The position numbers and the translations under genes are program-made. A model generated the notes under the pieces. It saw only the letters and a list, made by a program, of their open reading frames with translations, was not told the DNA's origin and did no database searches. From positions 62,001 through 126,000 of the forward strand of contig CACORJ010000001.1 in the NCBI GenBank assembly GCA_902629575.1: DNA of 64,000 nucleotides, read 5' to 3'. Origin of the DNA: an uncultured Pelagibacteraceae bacterium. GTDB taxonomy: Bacteria > Pseudomonadota > Alphaproteobacteria > Pelagibacterales > Pelagibacteraceae. Numbering within the stretch: position 1 is the stretch's first letter; each line of letters opens with the position of its first letter. This document shows, one piece after another, positions 43,901-50,023 of the stretch.

Positions 43901-45604
43901 ATGAAATTGAATGATTACAAAAACTTATTAGAATTATTCTTTCTTCGATATCAATCTGAAGATAAAAATGAAATTTTTTTACAATCACTTAAAGAAAAAG
44001 ATTTAAGATTTAATTGGAAACAAACTTACGACTGCATTCAAAAGTTGTCTTATTATCTGCAAAAACATATTTCTTCTGGGGACAGAGGTTTATTAATTTC
44101 AGAAAATAGACCAGAATGGTTAATAAGTGATTTATCTATAATGCTTGCTGAAGGTATTACTGTACCAGCTTATACAACATACACAGAGAGAGATTACGAA
44201 TATCTTATAAACGACTGCAAACCTTCAATTATAATAATTTCCAATTCGCTTCAATTTAAAAAGATAAAAAATATTATTTTAAAAAAAGATTTTATAAAAA
44301 AAATAATAAGTTTCGAAGAAGTAAAAGATAAAGAAGTGGAAGTTATAAACTTAAAACATATTCTTAAAGAAAATAATTATTTTGAAAAAAAATTAAAAGA
44401 TATTACTTTAACTAGAAAAGATATATCCTGCATTATTTATACTTCTGGAACTCAAGGAAATCCAAAAGGTGTGATGTTAAGTCATGGAGGTATTCTAAAT
44501 AATTGTGAGGGCTCAACAAAATTGTTAAAAGAAATAATTGGTTATAAACCCAAGTTTCTGACTTGGTTACCATTATCACATTCGTATGAACATACGGTGC
44601 AATTTGTCCAAATTGCTGTTGGAGCAAAAGTATTTTATGCAGAAAGTATTGATAAGCTAATTAAAAATATGAATGATTGTAGTCCTGATATTATGACTGC
44701 TGTACCTAGATTTTATCAAAACCTATATCAGAAAATATCGAACACTTTTAATAAAGCGACTGGCCTAAAAAAATTTTTAGTACAGTCGACTTTAAATATA
44801 GGTAGAAAAAGATTCTTAAATCAGAAGCTTTCCATGTATGAAAAATTTATTAATTTGATTTGTGACAAATTAGTTAGAAAAAAAATAAGATCACAATTTG
44901 GTGGTTTTCTTAAAGCATTCATTTCTGGTGGTGGTGCGTTAGACTATAAAGTTGGAGTTTTTTTAAATTCAATAGGTCTGCCAACCTTGCAAGGTTATGG
45001 CCTTACAGAAACATCACCAGTAGTAAGCTGTAATTCAATAAATGATATAAAAATAGATACAGTTGGAAAGCCATTCAAAGGTAATCAAGTAAAGATTTCT
45101 GATGATGGTGAAATATTAATAAAAGGTGAAAATGTTATGCTGGGATATTGGAAAAATCCTGGTGAGACTGAAAAAGTTTTAAAAAATGGATGGTTGTATA
45201 CTGGAGACATAGGACATTTTGATAATGGATTTTTAAAAATTACAGATAGAAAAAAAGACATAATAATAACACCAGGTGGAGATAATATTTCACCAGTAAA
45301 AATAGAAAATGATCTAACAAAAATAGAATTTATTGATCAAGCACTTGTTTACGGAGATAACAAGCCATTTTTAGTAGCATTATTAGTACTGAGTGAAGAA
45401 AAAAAAGGCATGGATAATAAAACTATAAGCAATGAAATTGAAAAAACTAATAAATATTTAAGTAAAGTGGAAAAAATAAAAAAATTTATTGTTGTAGATA
45501 AACAATTTTCAATTGAAAATGGTTTAATGACACCTACTTTAAAACTTAAAAGATATAAAATAATTAAAGAATTCAAAAATAAATTAGAACAACTTTACAA
45601 TTAA
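43901..45604 (+). CDS. Long-chain acyl-CoA synthetase (AMP-forming)
   Basis: 567 aa ANL-superfamily enzyme. The P-loop-like motif IIYTSGTQGNPKGVMLSH is near residue 175, A4/A5 motifs LQGYGLTETSPV near 364, the YTGDIG motif near 429 and the R-K-K-D-I-I-I-T-P-G-G-D-N hinge near 446. The catalytic Lys near the C-terminus is seen in PTLKLKRYKI. It resembles the long-chain (FadD15/FACL) group, activating free fatty acids to acyl-CoA. It starts 8 bp past the tRNA-Leu CCA end, so it may share the tRNA transcript. Confidence 0.9.
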   Translation: MKLNDYKNLLELFFLRYQSEDKNEIFLQSLKEKDLRFNWKQTYDCIQKLSYYLQKHISSGDRGLLISENRPEWLISDLSIMLAEGITVPAYTTYTERDYEYLINDCKPSIIIISNSLQFKKIKNIILKKDFIKKIISFEEVKDKEVEVINLKHILKENNYFEKKLKDITLTRKDISCIIYTSGTQGNPKGVMLSHGGILNNCEGSTKLLKEIIGYKPKFLTWLPLSHSYEHTVQFVQIAVGAKVFYAESIDKLIKNMNDCSPDIMTAVPRFYQNLYQKISNTFNKATGLKKFLVQSTLNIGRKRFLNQKLSMYEKFINLICDKLVRKKIRSQFGGFLKAFISGGGALDYKVGVFLNSIGLPTLQGYGLTETSPVVSCNSINDIKIDTVGKPFKGNQVKISDDGEILIKGENVMLGYWKNPGETEKVLKNGWLYTGDIGHFDNGFLKITDRKKDIIITPGGDNISPVKIENDLTKIEFIDQALVYGDNKPFLVALLVLSEEKKGMDNKTISNEIEKTNKYLSKVEKIKKFIVVDKQFSIENGLMTPTLKLKRYKIIKEFKNKLEQLYN

Positions 45605-45723: not shown

Positions 45724-45752
45724 TTGACATAACTAGTTTAAAAAAATAAAAA
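45724..45752 (+). promoter_or_regulatory. Promoter of the 26-aa basic peptide gene
   Basis: A consensus -35 TTGACA (45724-45729), 17-bp spacer and a TAAAAA -10 (45747-45752, relaxed match) point to a start near 45759. It is the only -35 consensus in this gap and is correctly placed for the short gene at 45805. Confidence 0.55.
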
Positions 45753-45763
45753 TAAACCAATAG

Positions 45764-45780
45764 CGAATCAATTTGATTCG
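45764..45780. repeat. Perfect palindrome CGAATCAA-T-TTGATTCG
   Basis: Eight-base arms are exact inverted complements around one central T. The palindrome lies just after the expected transcription start and about 14 bases before the AGGGAG ribosome binding site of the mini-gene. It can be an operator for a dimeric repressor, or a weak 5'-end RNA hairpin; the single-base loop makes the DNA-site reading more likely. The mixed base content makes chance less likely than for AT-only dyads. Confidence 0.65.
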
Positions 45781-45804
45781 TAAAACTAAAAAAGGGAGCT
45801 AAAG

Positions 45805-45885
45805 ATGCCTAAAAGAAGAAAAAAAGCAGCAAAGAAAACTAAGAAAAAAGCTAAAAAGAAAGCTAAAAAAAGAAGAAGAAGATAG
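45805..45885 (+). CDS. 26-aa hyperbasic peptide, nucleic-acid-binding-like
   Basis: ATG 45805 to TAG 45885 encodes 26 residues: 13 Lys and 6 Arg, with Ala, Thr and Pro, built of K-K-x-A-K-K style repeats and ending R-R-R-R. A strong ribosome binding site (AGGGAG) lies 6-11 bases before the ATG, a TTGACA promoter is upstream and a strong intrinsic terminator is just downstream, so it looks like a stand-alone, well expressed gene. Composition resembles tails of H1-like histones and small basic ribosomal proteins such as Thermus THX (also very short), but no homology is claimed. Probable role: binding RNA or DNA. Reading: seen = gene signals; inferred = function. Confidence 0.75.
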   Translation: MPKRRKKAAKKTKKKAKKKAKKRRRR

Positions 45886-45908
45886 TTACTTAGTTATCTT
45901 TACAAAAA

Positions 45909-45948
45909 ACGCTTCTCATAACATTTTGTGTGAGAGGCGTTTTTTTTA
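45909..45948. terminator. Strong bidirectional intrinsic terminator
   Basis: Ten-base arms ACGCTTCTCA (45909-45918) and TGAGAGGCGT (45931-45940) pair fully with one G-U, around a 12-base loop. Eight T residues follow on the + strand (45941-45948) and six A residues precede (45903-45908), so the same stem can terminate from both sides. It ends the basic peptide transcript at + strand and overlaps the last codon of carD on the - strand. Confidence 0.88.
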
Positions 45949-46839
45949 TTCATCTATAGGCTCTGCTTCGTCATTATCAGCTATGGGTTCGTCTGTTGAC
46001 AAGTCATTTGAACTCGTTTTTGAGGCTGTAACAACTGTTTGAGGTTGTTGACTTCCAGGTAAATTTCTTTTTAAAGCTTTATCCAGTTTTTTCTGCGTAT
46101 CTTCTATTGATAAATTTAATACAATTTGGAATTCAGACAAAATTCTTTCATATGCTTTTTCAAATAATTGTCTTTCACTATAAGATTGATCAACCATTAG
46201 ATCATCACCTTTATTTAGATCCCTTACAACTTCAGCCAATTCATAAATTTTTCCTGATGATATTTTAGCTTCATATTCTTGAGCTCTTCGACTCCACATT
46301 GATCGCTTAATTTTTGGTTTACTTTTTAAGATAGATATACATTTATTAACCTGATTGATAGTTGCTAAGGGACGTAAATGAGATTGTTTATTAACAGGAA
46401 CCATCCCATTGGCTTTATCCTTTTCAAATTTTATAACATATGTTTCAACATCTATTCCACCGATATTAATCTTTTTAAATTCAGTAATTTGGCCAACCCC
46501 ATGTTTAGGATAAACTACATAGTCTTTTACTTTAAATTCTTTTTTTTCAGTCCCCTGCTTTTTTACTTTTTTAATTTCTGGTTTAAGCTCATTAGTTTTG
46601 GAAATTCTTAAATTATCACTTTTTACTTCCGTTACTTGGTCTATTTTCTTAATTTGTTTCTTACTTTCATTTTTTTTTATATTTTTAACCTTTTTTTTAG
46701 AAATTTTCTGGGTTATGGGTTTTATCTTAGTTTTTTTGGTTTTATTTACTTTTTTATTTAAAACCTTTTTTTTATTCTTTTTTTGATTATTTTTTTTAAA
46801 GGTTTTCTTTAAAATATTTTTCAAACTTATTTTGCTCAT
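45946..46839 (-). CDS. carD: CarD/CdnL-family RNA polymerase-binding regulator with lysine-rich extension
   Basis: About 297 aa from ATG 46839; in-frame starts at 46854 or 46881 (GTG) are possible. Residues 1-100 are an extreme lysine/asparagine-rich low-complexity region. From about 101 comes a CarD RID-type domain ([21 protein letters not shown]), then the basic helical part with [17 protein letters not shown] near 185, containing the conserved Trp that opens the promoter bubble. The last ~20 residues are acidic. Typical CarD/CdnL is 160-190 aa, so the N-terminus is added. It stabilises open promoter complexes, especially at rRNA genes. The gene begins inside fdxA (44-bp overlap), in the common fdxA-carD order. 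Confidence 0.9.
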
Positions 46840-47122
46840 TTTTATATTTTTCATGATCCAGCGGAGGATCTTTCTTTTCACTTATGTTAGGCCAGATTTC
46901 AGAATATTTTTTATTGATTTCTAACCATTTTTCGCTGCCTGTTTCTGTGTCAGCTGTTATGGCATCAACTGGACATTCAGGCTCACAAACGCCACAATCT
47001 ATACACTCATCGGGTCTAATTACAAGCATATTTTTACCTTCATAAAAGCAATCAACTGGACATACCTCAACACAGTCCATCAATTTACATTTAATACATT
47101 TGTCATTAACAATGTAAGTCAT
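46796..47122 (-). CDS. fdxA: Ferredoxin FdxA (7Fe type)
   Basis: 108 aa. Cysteines lie in [21 protein letters not shown] and [18 protein letters not shown], giving one 3Fe-4S and one 4Fe-4S centre as in Azotobacter-type FdI and alphaproteobacterial FdxA. The rest (about 70-108) is a family tail with W-x-x-I-N-x-K-Y-S-x-I-W-P-N-I. It is a low-potential electron carrier in the cytoplasm. It is between the TerB-like gene, sharing one base, and carD, which begins within its 3' end. Confidence 0.95.
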
Positions 47123-47538
47123 TATAAATTTTCTTTTCTAATTTCCTCTTTGATATCTCCCATTGTTTTATTATTTATGTAAAGTAAACCGGAAAGTCTT
47201 CTCATAAGGTTAGTTTCGTACATATCCGCATCTTTATTGGAGTAGATAATTCTCCAGAGAGACTTAATAATCTTTATTTTACTGTTTTCATTTAAGTTTT
47301 TAACTTCTTTTGTAAATTCAAGTATTTGAGTAGCATTTTCTTCATTTAACTTTGCTTTAGTAATCAAATTTTCTAATTCAGCTTCTCCCACTCCAAGATC
47401 TAATAAAGTTTTTTTTATTATTTCTTCCTCTTCTTTTGTATATTTTTCATCTATTTTAGCAGCATGAATAAGTAACGCAGCAATTTTTTCTAAATATACA
47501 TTATCTTTATCCTGTTTATTTTTTTTATTAAAAAACAT
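47122..47538 (-). CDS. TerB-like helical domain protein
   Basis: 138 aa. The sequence is an all-helical acidic protein with [26 protein letters not shown] near residue 18 and [29 protein letters not shown] near 90. This is the twin D-x-x-x-x-x-E-x2-x(M) pattern of TerB-family domains, likely metal-binding. The name derives from tellurite resistance, but single-domain chromosomal members are widespread and not resistance genes. It stands where many alphaproteobacteria have an S4-domain protein between helicase and fdxA. Function unknown. It begins 4 bp after the helicase stop. Confidence 0.8.
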
Positions 47539-47542
47539 TTTT

Positions 47543-50023
47543 TTAACTTAAGTTTAAGTTTTTCAATACGCCAAAGGGATTCTCTTTGTAATTTTTTTTA
47601 TTCTCCGTTTTTCTCAATTTTTTTTGAGGTGAATATCTAAAAAATATATCATCATTCTTTTCAAAGACCTTATAATTCATTTTTTTTATCAATTTTTTGA
47701 AATTCTCCTTATTACATCCCAAAAGATTTAGCATTTCAGGTATTAACTTGATCTCTTTGTTTTCATCAGGATTTGAATTTATAATTTGCATAAATAACCT
47801 TTCCAAAATATCAATTCTCACAAAAAAATTATCAAACTTTTCAAATCCACAAAGTAACATAAAATTTTTATTTCTATTATCAACATCCTCAATAAAATTT
47901 AAACCAAAAGTTGGAGGATTGAGTTTAAAATATTTTTGATGATAATTTTTCCAAAGTAAAGTTCTTATTGTCACAGGCTCAGGTTTTATCAATTTATATA
48001 AAAAAACATGATATCTACCAAATTTGACTCCCATTTCCCGTAAAATTTTTCTTTCATTCTGTCCTAAAGATTTTAAATATTCAGAAACATTTTCTCTTAC
48101 AAGAACACCATTGTTCTCATAAAGCTGATATGCTAAGGCTTTAATGGAAGAATTTTTATCTTTAAGATTTTTTAGATCAATTAAACTTTGAAGAACAGTA
48201 TCTATTTTATTTTTTAACCATTTTTTTATAAATGAAACTAACCTTTGTTTCTGATTTACTTCTAAAATATCATCAACGATTAGTTCAAAACTAGGATTTA
48301 GGTAATCATTACCGGGAGTGAGTCTTGCAATAGCAAAATTGTTCCAGTAAATTTTAAAATCATTGTTTAACTGAACTAATTTATTTTCAATTATAATTTG
48401 AATTCTCTTTTCAAGTTCTGGCCCTATAGTTTGTCTAGCAGCTTTTTTAAGTGATTTTATATCAGTTTCTAATGCACCTTTCTTAAGGTCAAGTTCTAAT
48501 TTTAATCCTTTTATTTTTCCAATAAACTGACCATCAATTTTTACTTCATTATTATCTGAAATTTCTGTTTTAAATTCCATATCTTGTTTTAATCCTCTAG
48601 CAAGTATACTTGCTCTTTTATCAATAAATGTTTTTGTAAGTTCTTCATGAAGTCGATCTGATAGTCTGTCTTCTAATAATTTTGTTTTCTCTATCCAATA
48701 ATTTTGATTTTCAACCCAATTATTTTTATTTGAAACATATGACCAAGTTCTCACATTTGCAATTCTATTTGATAAAGAATCTACATTTCCGTCTAATTTA
48801 TCCAGTTTCATAAGCTGTATTTGCATAAAATCGTTAGTAATTTTGCATTTTTTACTCGAAAGAAATTTAAATACGTTTTCAATTACTTCGTAGTGATTTC
48901 CATAACTTTTTTTAACAAAGTCTGGTATCTGACAGCATTCCCAGAGTAACTTTAGTATTCTGTTATCAAAGTTCAATTTTTCAAAATTTTTATCCCTTAA
49001 AAAAAATTTTAAAGCTTTTTCATCCTCACATTCATGAATTTTTCTTAACCATTCTTTATGGGGCCTCTCTTCTAAAGATTTGATCAAACTCTGCGGATTA
49101 TTAAAATTTAAAGCCGAATTTCTCCAATATAAAGTTTTAATTTCCTCAAAATTATGATTTTCTAATAATTCAACTTCTTCAGCGTTTATTTCCTTACAAT
49201 TTCCAGTTATCCCGAAACTTCCATCATTTAAGTATCTACCTGCCCTACCAGCAATTTGCCCTACCTCAGATAAATTTAATCTTCTTAATTTTTTTCCATC
49301 AAATTTTTTCAAATTAGAAAAGTAAACATTATCGAGGTTCATATTAATACCCATACCGATTGCATCAGTTGCTACAAGATAGTCGACATCACCAGATTGA
49401 TATAATTCAACTTGAGAATTTCTTGTTTTAGGACTTAAAGATCCCATTACAATTGCTGCACCACCTTTTTGCCGTCTGATTAATTCTGCAATCGCATAAA
49501 CCTCTTCAGCAGAAAAAGCTATAATAGCAGTTTGTCTATTTATTCTTGAAATTTTTTTATGACCAACGTAAGAAAGTTTTGAAAATCTTTTTCTATTTAT
49601 AAATTCTACATCATCATCCAATTTTGAAATTATATTTTTAATTGTATTAGATCCCATTAACATAGTAAGCTTATTTCCTCTCATATTAAGCAGCCTATCC
49701 GTAAAAATATGACCTCTTTCATGATCTGCACACATCTGTATCTCATCTACTCCAATAAACTCTACCAATTTATCTATAGGCATCGACTCAACAGTACATA
49801 AAAAATATTTAGCACCAGTTGGAATTATTTTTTCTTCACCAGTGATAAGAGCAACTTTATCTTGTCCAACTTTTTTAATTACTTTGTCATAAACCTCCCT
49901 AGCCAAAAGTCTTAAAGGAAAACCAATAATACCACTGTCAAAGGACAGCATAGTTTCGATAGCTAAATGAGTTTTTCCTGTATTAGTTGGACCTAGTACT
50001 GCAGTGACTTTATTTTTACTCAT
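47543..50023 (-). CDS. Suv3-like DEAD/DEAH-box RNA helicase
   Basis: 826 aa. Motif I is AVLGPTNTGKTHLAIE at residues 8-23, followed by motif II VDEIQMCADHERGHIFTDRLL near 93, and motif VI IGQIAGRAGRYLNDGSFG near 260. These match mitochondrial SUPV3L1/Suv3 and its alphaproteobacterial relatives. A long C-terminal half (about 400-826) contains helical domains and a beta segment (about 480-530) without a clear assignment, also a family feature. Suv3 partners PNPase in mitochondrial RNA decay, so a working link with pnp here is possible but only inferred. The helicase-fdxA-carD order is standard for alphaproteobacteria. Confidence 0.9.
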   Translation of the reverse strand: MSKNKVTAVLGPTNTGKTHLAIETMLSFDSGIIGFPLRLLAREVYDKVIKKVGQDKVALITGEEKIIPTGAKYFLCTVESMPIDKLVEFIGVDEIQMCADHERGHIFTDRLLNMRGNKLTMLMGSNTIKNIISKLDDDVEFINRKRFSKLSYVGHKKISRINRQTAIIAFSAEEVYAIAELIRRQKGGAAIVMGSLSPKTRNSQVELYQSGDVDYLVATDAIGMGINMNLDNVYFSNLKKFDGKKLRRLNLSEVGQIAGRAGRYLNDGSFGITGNCKEINAEEVELLENHNFEEIKTLYWRNSALNFNNPQSLIKSLEERPHKEWLRKIHECEDEKALKFFLRDKNFEKLNFDNRILKLLWECCQIPDFVKKSYGNHYEVIENVFKFLSSKKCKITNDFMQIQLMKLDKLDGNVDSLSNRIANVRTWSYVSNKNNWVENQNYWIEKTKLLEDRLSDRLHEELTKTFIDKRASILARGLKQDMEFKTEISDNNEVKIDGQFIGKIKGLKLELDLKKGALETDIKSLKKAARQTIGPELEKRIQIIIENKLVQLNNDFKIYWNNFAIARLTPGNDYLNPSFELIVDDILEVNQKQRLVSFIKKWLKNKIDTVLQSLIDLKNLKDKNSSIKALAYQLYENNGVLVRENVSEYLKSLGQNERKILREMGVKFGRYHVFLYKLIKPEPVTIRTLLWKNYHQKYFKLNPPTFGLNFIEDVDNRNKNFMLLCGFEKFDNFFVRIDILERLFMQIINSNPDENKEIKLIPEMLNLLGCNKENFKKLIKKMNYKVFEKNDDIFFRYSPQKKLRKTENKKNYKENPFGVLKNLNLS

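Follow-up and report, generated by a model that had tools for sequence, protein, structure and literature searches.

Bacterial histone-H1-like proteins, namely chlamydial Hc1/Hc2, Bordetella BpH1 and the AlgP-type tails, are rich in Lys, Ala and Pro, poor in acidic residues, built from repeats and variable in length. Protamines are very short, consist almost purely of basic residues and condense DNA by charge, and eL41 and THX comprise ~25 extremely basic residues with a fixed length and a fixed ribosomal site. We describe here a 26-codon gene that invites comparison with all three. Its long orthologues are like the H1-like proteins in being Lys/Ala/Pro-rich, acid-poor, repeat-built, variable in length and probably disordered, whereas the short type differs from them by its size (19-38 residues), its stand-alone mini-gene with a leader of its own and the lack of a Pfam match at E ≤ 1. 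The peptide shares with protamines a very short, nearly all-basic chain that would be expected to condense DNA by charge, but it is dominated by Lys (1140 Lys to 482 Arg), bacterial and present order-wide in free-living cells. It is similar to eL41 and THX in size and basic composition, but its length is free.

The gene lies in a compact unit located between an AMP-binding ligase gene (43901-45604, + strand) and carD (45946-46881, - strand) of the window, the 64,000-nucleotide stretch of DNA that was analysed. An earlier note had described a TTGACA promoter, an exact 17-base palindrome, an AGGGAG ribosome-binding site, a 26-codon ORF with 19 basic residues and a strong bidirectional terminator at 45724-45948, and each of these elements was found at its position:

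45724-45729, + strand: TTGACA, -35 element of the presumed mini-gene promoter, 33-35 nt from the hairpin in 83 of 88 short-type loci
45748-45753, + strand: AAAAAT, a weak -10 element after an 18-nt spacer
45764-45780, + strand: 5′ leader stem-loop CGAATCAA-T-TTGATTCG, an exact 8+1+8 inverted repeat near the presumed mRNA 5′ end
45793-45798, + strand: Shine-Dalgarno sequence AGGGAG, 6 nt ahead of the ATG
45805-45885, + strand: 26-codon ORF MPKRRKKAAKKTKKKAKKKAKKRRRR, ATG at 45805 and TAG ending at 45885, frame conserved and under purifying selection
45904-45945, no single strand: bidirectional intrinsic terminator, a 17-pair hairpin common to the mini-gene and carD, directly beside the carD stop
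45946-46881, - strand: carD/cdnL (Pfam PF02559, PF21095), stop codon at 45946-45948, a convergent and constant neighbour outside the mini-gene

The 2-kb region has three terminator-like sites, against 0.3 expected; judged by eye, the stem of the shared terminator is retained with changed pairs in other genera. The promoter stands in part. TTGACA is present and keeps its distance to the hairpin, the five exceptions comprising two loci cut by a contig end and three with an altered right hairpin arm, but the -10 element is poor and promoter-like sites in the 2-kb region are no commoner than in shuffles (10 versus 11.1), and we treat use of this promoter as presumptive. All 88 short-type loci have the Shine-Dalgarno sequence GGGAG with 5-6 nt after it, in the form GGGAGCTAAAG in 69 of them.

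The peptide contains 13 Lys and 6 Arg, which amount to 19 basic residues out of 26, and its ORF has the highest basic fraction among the 596 window ORFs of at least 20 residues (K+R 0.73, runner-up 0.55). The 88 short-type loci yielded 85 unique units and 60 unique ORFs of 20-35 residues, and all 85 units retain the ATG start, the frame and the stop. After the start Met, the short type is composed of 1140 Lys, 482 Arg, 358 Ala, 44 Thr, 32 Pro, 3 Gly and 2 Ser, corresponding to 79% K+R overall and 65-83% per peptide. Asp and Glu are absent from the 85 unique peptides and no GAA or GAG codon occurs, yet the +1 frame reads Glu 397 times.

We compared 28 nearest-neighbour pairs of equal-length ORFs and found 40 of 58 codon differences to be synonymous, a figure that is descriptive since the pairs are related. 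Placing the same base changes randomly gave 26% synonymous differences (sd 5, maximum 46%), and none of 2000 simulations reached the observed value. Each randomised replicate would also acquire ~8 acidic residues and 2.5 stops, whereas neither is observed. The 18 non-synonymous differences exchange Lys and Arg (16) or Ala and Pro (2) only, and differences at codon positions 1, 2 and 3 number 3, 16 and 39, respectively. The peptide is under purifying selection. Reading-frame conservation across relatives, which the earlier note had set as a test, thus holds, and together with the extreme basic content it upholds the earlier view of a self-contained mini-gene rather than a chance ORF.

The same data weigh on the alternative that the unit is a small regulatory RNA, with an ORF that is incidental or an RNA that is dual-function. 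Such an RNA would account for the 5′ stem-loop of conserved sequence, for the terminator and for the folding of the presumed transcript (45760-45945), which is better than that of shuffles (z = -4.6) and in which part of the ORF is predicted to pair with the stretch ahead of the terminator. It is at odds with the codon-level selection, the frame-preserving length changes and the invariant ribosome-binding site and ATG. Rfam at gathering thresholds returned two tRNAs only in the window and no match for the leader or the mini-gene, and, in the available part of Meyer et al. 2009 (PMC2704228), no RNA motif named there adjoins carD and the word CarD is absent. We regard a regulatory RNA as very improbable, although a dual role is conceivable.

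Conservation of the unit extends well beyond the window. It was matched at the DNA level in 30 of 37 same-genus genomes, the window's own included (E ≤ 1e-11; three matches partial at contig ends, in G001, G004 and G005), and lies tail-to-tail with carD in 30 of the 30 that have carD. The seven genomes without the unit also have no carD match, as expected for incomplete assemblies. A scripted scan of 50 carD loci recovered the ORF in 28 of 30 short-type loci and a longer, H1-like ORF in 18 of 20 sister-family loci, the other two of each group being cut by a contig end. In a named collection, 60 of 62 short-type Pelagibacterales loci carry the ORF, with both misses at contig ends, and one further locus carries the long type.

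A strict pattern combining the Shine-Dalgarno sequence and the N-terminus matched 280 of 397 family genomes (113 of the 140 good ones), and a control pattern had no match among the family genomes listed. Inspection of 40 stretches taken from the strict-pattern matches found the ORF in 39 and one false match (L256). From the 117 genomes negative for the pattern we re-inspected 23, plus one sister-family genome, of which 13 had carD and 11 did not. Nine of these 13 carD loci hold a full ATG ORF and one has a GTG start (L280, by eye); of the other three, one is truncated by a contig end but shows the 3′ part, one is broken and one ends inside carD. The frame of L279, a MAG, is broken near its 3′ end inside an A-run, which could be an assembly error. 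No carD match was obtained in 9 of 21 good-quality re-inspected genomes, a set chosen for missing the strict pattern; with contigs often breaking off in this low-complexity stretch, and several assemblies inside the gene itself, the cause probably lies in assembly. The strict pattern matched twice in at least three genomes (G623, G643 and G784), one of the G643 matches being the false one noted above. One 9.6-kb contig of G623 carries two copies of the mini-gene (L262, L263), inverted, 3.4 kb apart and encoding an identical peptide, an arrangement that may be an assembly palindrome.

We also looked for the gene elsewhere. A class-wide search matched carD in 255 of 289 genomes, and the best 30 loci were inspected. 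Beside carD of other Alphaproteobacteria, no comparable ORF was found in 17 loci (one strand, ATG only) or in 27 loci, several of them with short flanks; weak basic-ORF matches outside the order (L142, L198) are unrelated in sequence to the mini-gene peptide. An exact-pattern scan of viral contigs with the common N-terminus forms gave no match. Nine extra lysine-rich places in same-genus genomes were inspected as potential paralogues and none is a second mini-gene: L151-L156 are tails of FecR-like exported proteins and L157 is the N-terminal extension of an acetyl-CoA-synthetase-like protein (both named by eye), and there is no lysine-rich protein at L158 and L159, in the window's own genome. 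The FecR-like tails consist of long KKATKKK-type lysine repeats and occur in several same-genus genomes. Searching the window's own genome with the long form returned no match, a result of little weight with no genome known to match as yardstick. The mini-gene is a true protein gene, as a rule present once per genome, and occurs in almost all examined Pelagibacterales genomes that have the region assembled.

The peptides at this locus form a graded series of lengths. Short-type peptides span 19-38 residues across all loci compared; three genomes of genus g7 encode intermediate forms of 37, 50 and 58 residues with PAK/AAPK-type units; and the sister family has forms of 40-91 residues that start with MEELK or MEDLK and continue with AAPKKKK-type repeats. 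The sister-family forms contain exactly two acidic residues each (19 of 19), both located in the N-terminal MEE/MED. Short, intermediate and long forms have in common the locus, the convergent carD and the TTGAC[AT] ... GAATC promoter element and stem-loop. Length can change between the closest of relatives, as identical CarD cores accompany peptides of 40 and 80 residues in one case and of 58 and 50 residues in another.

We built a tree of CarD cores (35 rows, some forks open, root drawn at the midpoint only), in which the sister family and the outgroups separate from Pelagibacteraceae. The g5/g7 and g6 rows, with peptides of 20-58 residues, fall outside a supported clade (97/97) of the remaining Pelagibacteraceae, whose peptides measure 20-27 residues where intact. 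This topology fits a short form derived by shortening during genome streamlining; the reverse direction is also possible.

Judged by these sequences, the mini-gene family appears as an H1-like series graded along a single locus. The earlier note had likened the peptide to both H1-type tails and the ribosomal protein THX, and the former proves the better analogy because the same locus encodes H1-like repeats of 37-91 residues in relatives. The composition is Lys/Ala/Pro-rich, acid-poor and of low complexity (K+R 79%, the rest being Ala, Thr, Pro, Gly and Ser), and length varies with repeat number from 19 to 91 residues. Pfam, NCBIfam and PHROG gave no match at E ≤ 1 to a described family with either the short or the long form, and the H1 relation consequently rests on composition, synteny and the graded series.

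We consider it probable, at roughly 60%, that the gene product is a minimal (19-38 residues in the short type), disordered and acid-free polycation of the histone-H1-tail/protamine type that binds nucleic acid, probably in the nucleoid. Selection acts for charge and against acidity and leaves length free, as would suit a disordered polycation that works on a polyanion, and the free drift in length suggests a function that depends on charge density rather than on one set binding site. Given the H1-like long forms, DNA comes first among the candidate targets, and RNA, be it the ribosome or the peptide's own leader, is the main rival; DNA would be the principal target on our reading, and the sequence as such fits DNA and RNA alike.

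The same selection for pure charge density and the tolerance of length would suit any polyanion. The peptide might replace polyamines or Mg2+ as a soluble counter-ion, or bind other polyanions such as polyphosphate or RNA condensates, and would then have no specific nucleoid role. The H1-like build of the long orthologues favours DNA over other polyanions, and we view this explanation as improbable.

The palindrome of the earlier note is indeed an exact inverted repeat, but it behaves as an mRNA stem-loop and not as a DNA operator. Of 81 unique hairpin regions, 70 form all six inner pairs, compared with a mean of 0.85 (at most 2) in shuffles, and the other 11 fail mostly at the outermost pair. 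Loop length varies over 4-16 nt, and 14 of the 81 regions have G-U at one pair. TTGAC[AT] followed by GAATC at the expected distance was present in 144 of 144 judgeable leaders (of 146), and minimum-free-energy folding predicts the stem in 111 of 113 unique leaders (median z -3.1). One pair is changed on both sides (A-U to C-G) in 4 of 18 sister-family leaders, and 12 leaders from the window and genera g5, g6 and g234 show two-sided changes at two pairs, one of them in five sequences; the RNAalifold covariation term for those 12 leaders is 0. With TTGACA located 33-35 nt (short type) or 32-34 nt (sister family) upstream, the stem lies near the presumed 5′ end of the transcript.

The motif TTGACA ... 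CGAATC ... GATTC was found in 210 of 297 order genomes (111 of the 150 good ones), and its reversed control matched at least 7 of the order genomes listed. In each of three genomes searched, a shorter stem-loop motif has one site (two of these genomes also contain a match to the reversed control), which gives no sign of a regulon or of a regulon-wide operator. The variable loop, the G-U pair, the two-sided changes and the single motif site rule out a DNA operator as the first choice; an operator for the mini-gene alone is possible. We favour an mRNA 5′ stem-loop as the reading of the palindrome, with modest covariation support from the stem itself. Both stem arms (45764-45780) also contain GANTC, a CcrM methylation site, and the right copy is lost where the arm becomes GATTTG.

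Sister-family leaders (L051-L070; for instance L069:1163-1227) carry a second helix that pairs the Shine-Dalgarno sequence. It is formed in 18 of 18 sequences and varies in one of them, by a compensatory C-G to G-C change. The two-hairpin structure pairs in 98.4% of cells, compared with 46-68% in slid versions, and its number of pairs with two-sided change was reached by 29 of 500 shuffles. Feedback on translation through this helix is possible.

A helix that pairs the Shine-Dalgarno sequence is also a feature of auto-regulated ribosomal-protein leaders, and its occurrence in the sister family, with a compensatory pair, is among the observations that would be explained if the peptide were an RNA-binding or ribosomal component (eL41- or THX-like) or an RNA chaperone instead of a DNA-condensing peptide. 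This alternative would also suit the very strong Shine-Dalgarno sequence, the resemblance to eL41 and THX in size and composition, and the promotion of rRNA transcription by the neighbour's homologue CarD/CdnL in Caulobacter, as stated in the accessible part of PMC5324124. It is harder to reconcile with lengths of 19-58 residues within one family and 40-91 residues in its sister, with the H1-type repeats of the long forms and with the neighbourhood, where none of four proteins tested is ribosomal. The likeness to THX proposed in the earlier note is weak, given a roughly fivefold range of length across the order; the twofold difference between near-identical relatives with identical CarD cores speaks against a fixed ribosomal slot. 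A phmmer search of PDB chains at E ≤ 10 returned none for the peptide, a 26-residue low-complexity query with little power, and the one match of the long form (E 0.52, a putative L29) was judged to be chance. Taken together, we give the ribosomal or RNA-binding explanation a minor but real share of the probability, and retain the nucleic-acid-binding polycation of the nucleoid as our preferred interpretation.

The window belongs to a Pelagibacterales (SAR11) genome: the protein encoded by its carD is up to 89% identical, over the best segment, to named Pelagibacteraceae records, and comprises the CarD RID and C-terminal domains. In SAR11, both families extend the CarD N-terminus by a long lysine-rich stretch. 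Among same-genus loci, 27 of 30 encode an acidic C-tail; the figures are 42 of 61 for the named short-type loci and 0 of 20 for the sister family. CarD/CdnL binds RNA polymerase in addition to its role in rRNA transcription in Caulobacter (PMC5324124, part of text), and the available text of PMC4374960 attributes a DNA-binding HMGA-like domain to myxobacterial CarD. In view of these RNA polymerase and DNA links, the lysine-rich extension and the acidic tail, a functional tie between the mini-gene and the convergent carD is possible.

A cationic peptide of this kind might also be secreted, as an antimicrobial or allelopathic agent. The gene is single-copy and conserved order-wide, which is untypical of bacteriocins, and no hydrophobic segment fit for a signal peptide was seen by eye. 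A relevant precedent is MR-22 (MAKRRKKAKKKAKKAKKRRRRR-NH2), a synthetic antimicrobial 22-mer whose sequence came out of a prediction screen of UniProt; according to the accessible sections of PMC10847306, 4-32 ug/ml of it kill E. coli. The peptide of loci L110/L111 is longer by one lysine, no exact match to MR-22 occurs among the loci compared, and the text of the paper does not contain the words Pelagibacter, SAR11 or marine (PMC10847306). MR-22 differs from the mini-gene peptide in being synthetic, amidated and applied externally, and added sodium (150 mM in the methods, 150 uM in the table; PMC10847306, as far as available) raises its MIC to 256 ug/ml, which makes activity in seawater unlikely. 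We find an antimicrobial role hardly credible; the mini-gene peptides are nonetheless a likely natural family for MR-22, already studied as an antimicrobial.

Our preferred interpretation of a nucleoid polycation predicts the following course. A dedicated promoter would give rise to a short mRNA of roughly 190 nt that begins with the 5′ stem-loop, probably serving as decay protection or as a control site, carries the strong Shine-Dalgarno sequence and stops at the bidirectional terminator common with carD. The peptide, presumably translated and abundant and with a net charge of ~+19, would neutralise and bridge nucleic-acid backbones, most likely in the nucleoid, where it would be an independent equivalent of the DNA-condensing H1-like tails; its length may drift freely. 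A more far-reaching version strikes us as doubtful: the peptide could be the smallest gene-encoded bacterial H1/protamine-like protein, shrunk in streamlining from an H1-like ancestor of 40-90 residues, kept beside carD and self-repressing through its leader, and could set nucleoid packing and, with lysine-tailed CarD, RNA polymerase access.

No family model tested covers the gene; by composition, synteny and graded series it would belong with the H1-like proteins. Such a short gene falls below the usual gene-calling limits, and with Lys or Arg at 19 of 26 positions trypsin would fragment the peptide, so standard proteomics probably misses it. We found no published description of the gene in the accessible parts of the open-licence literature, in which no paper pairs SAR11 with 'histone H1' or Pelagibacter with 'lysine-rich'; a table row in the available part of PMC8707726 concerns a different gene. 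SAR11 is called the most abundant marine group (PMC10308909, accessible part), and the mini-gene is conserved through this order of very abundant ocean bacteria. If the peptide is a nucleoid polycation, it would change the picture of DNA packing in a streamlined cell and provide a testable case of an H1-like protein cut down to ~25 residues.

On the far side of carD, a ferredoxin gene adjoins it, and a TerB-family gene (Pfam; 47122-47538, - strand) lies between this ferredoxin gene and a helicase-like gene (47543-50023, named by eye).
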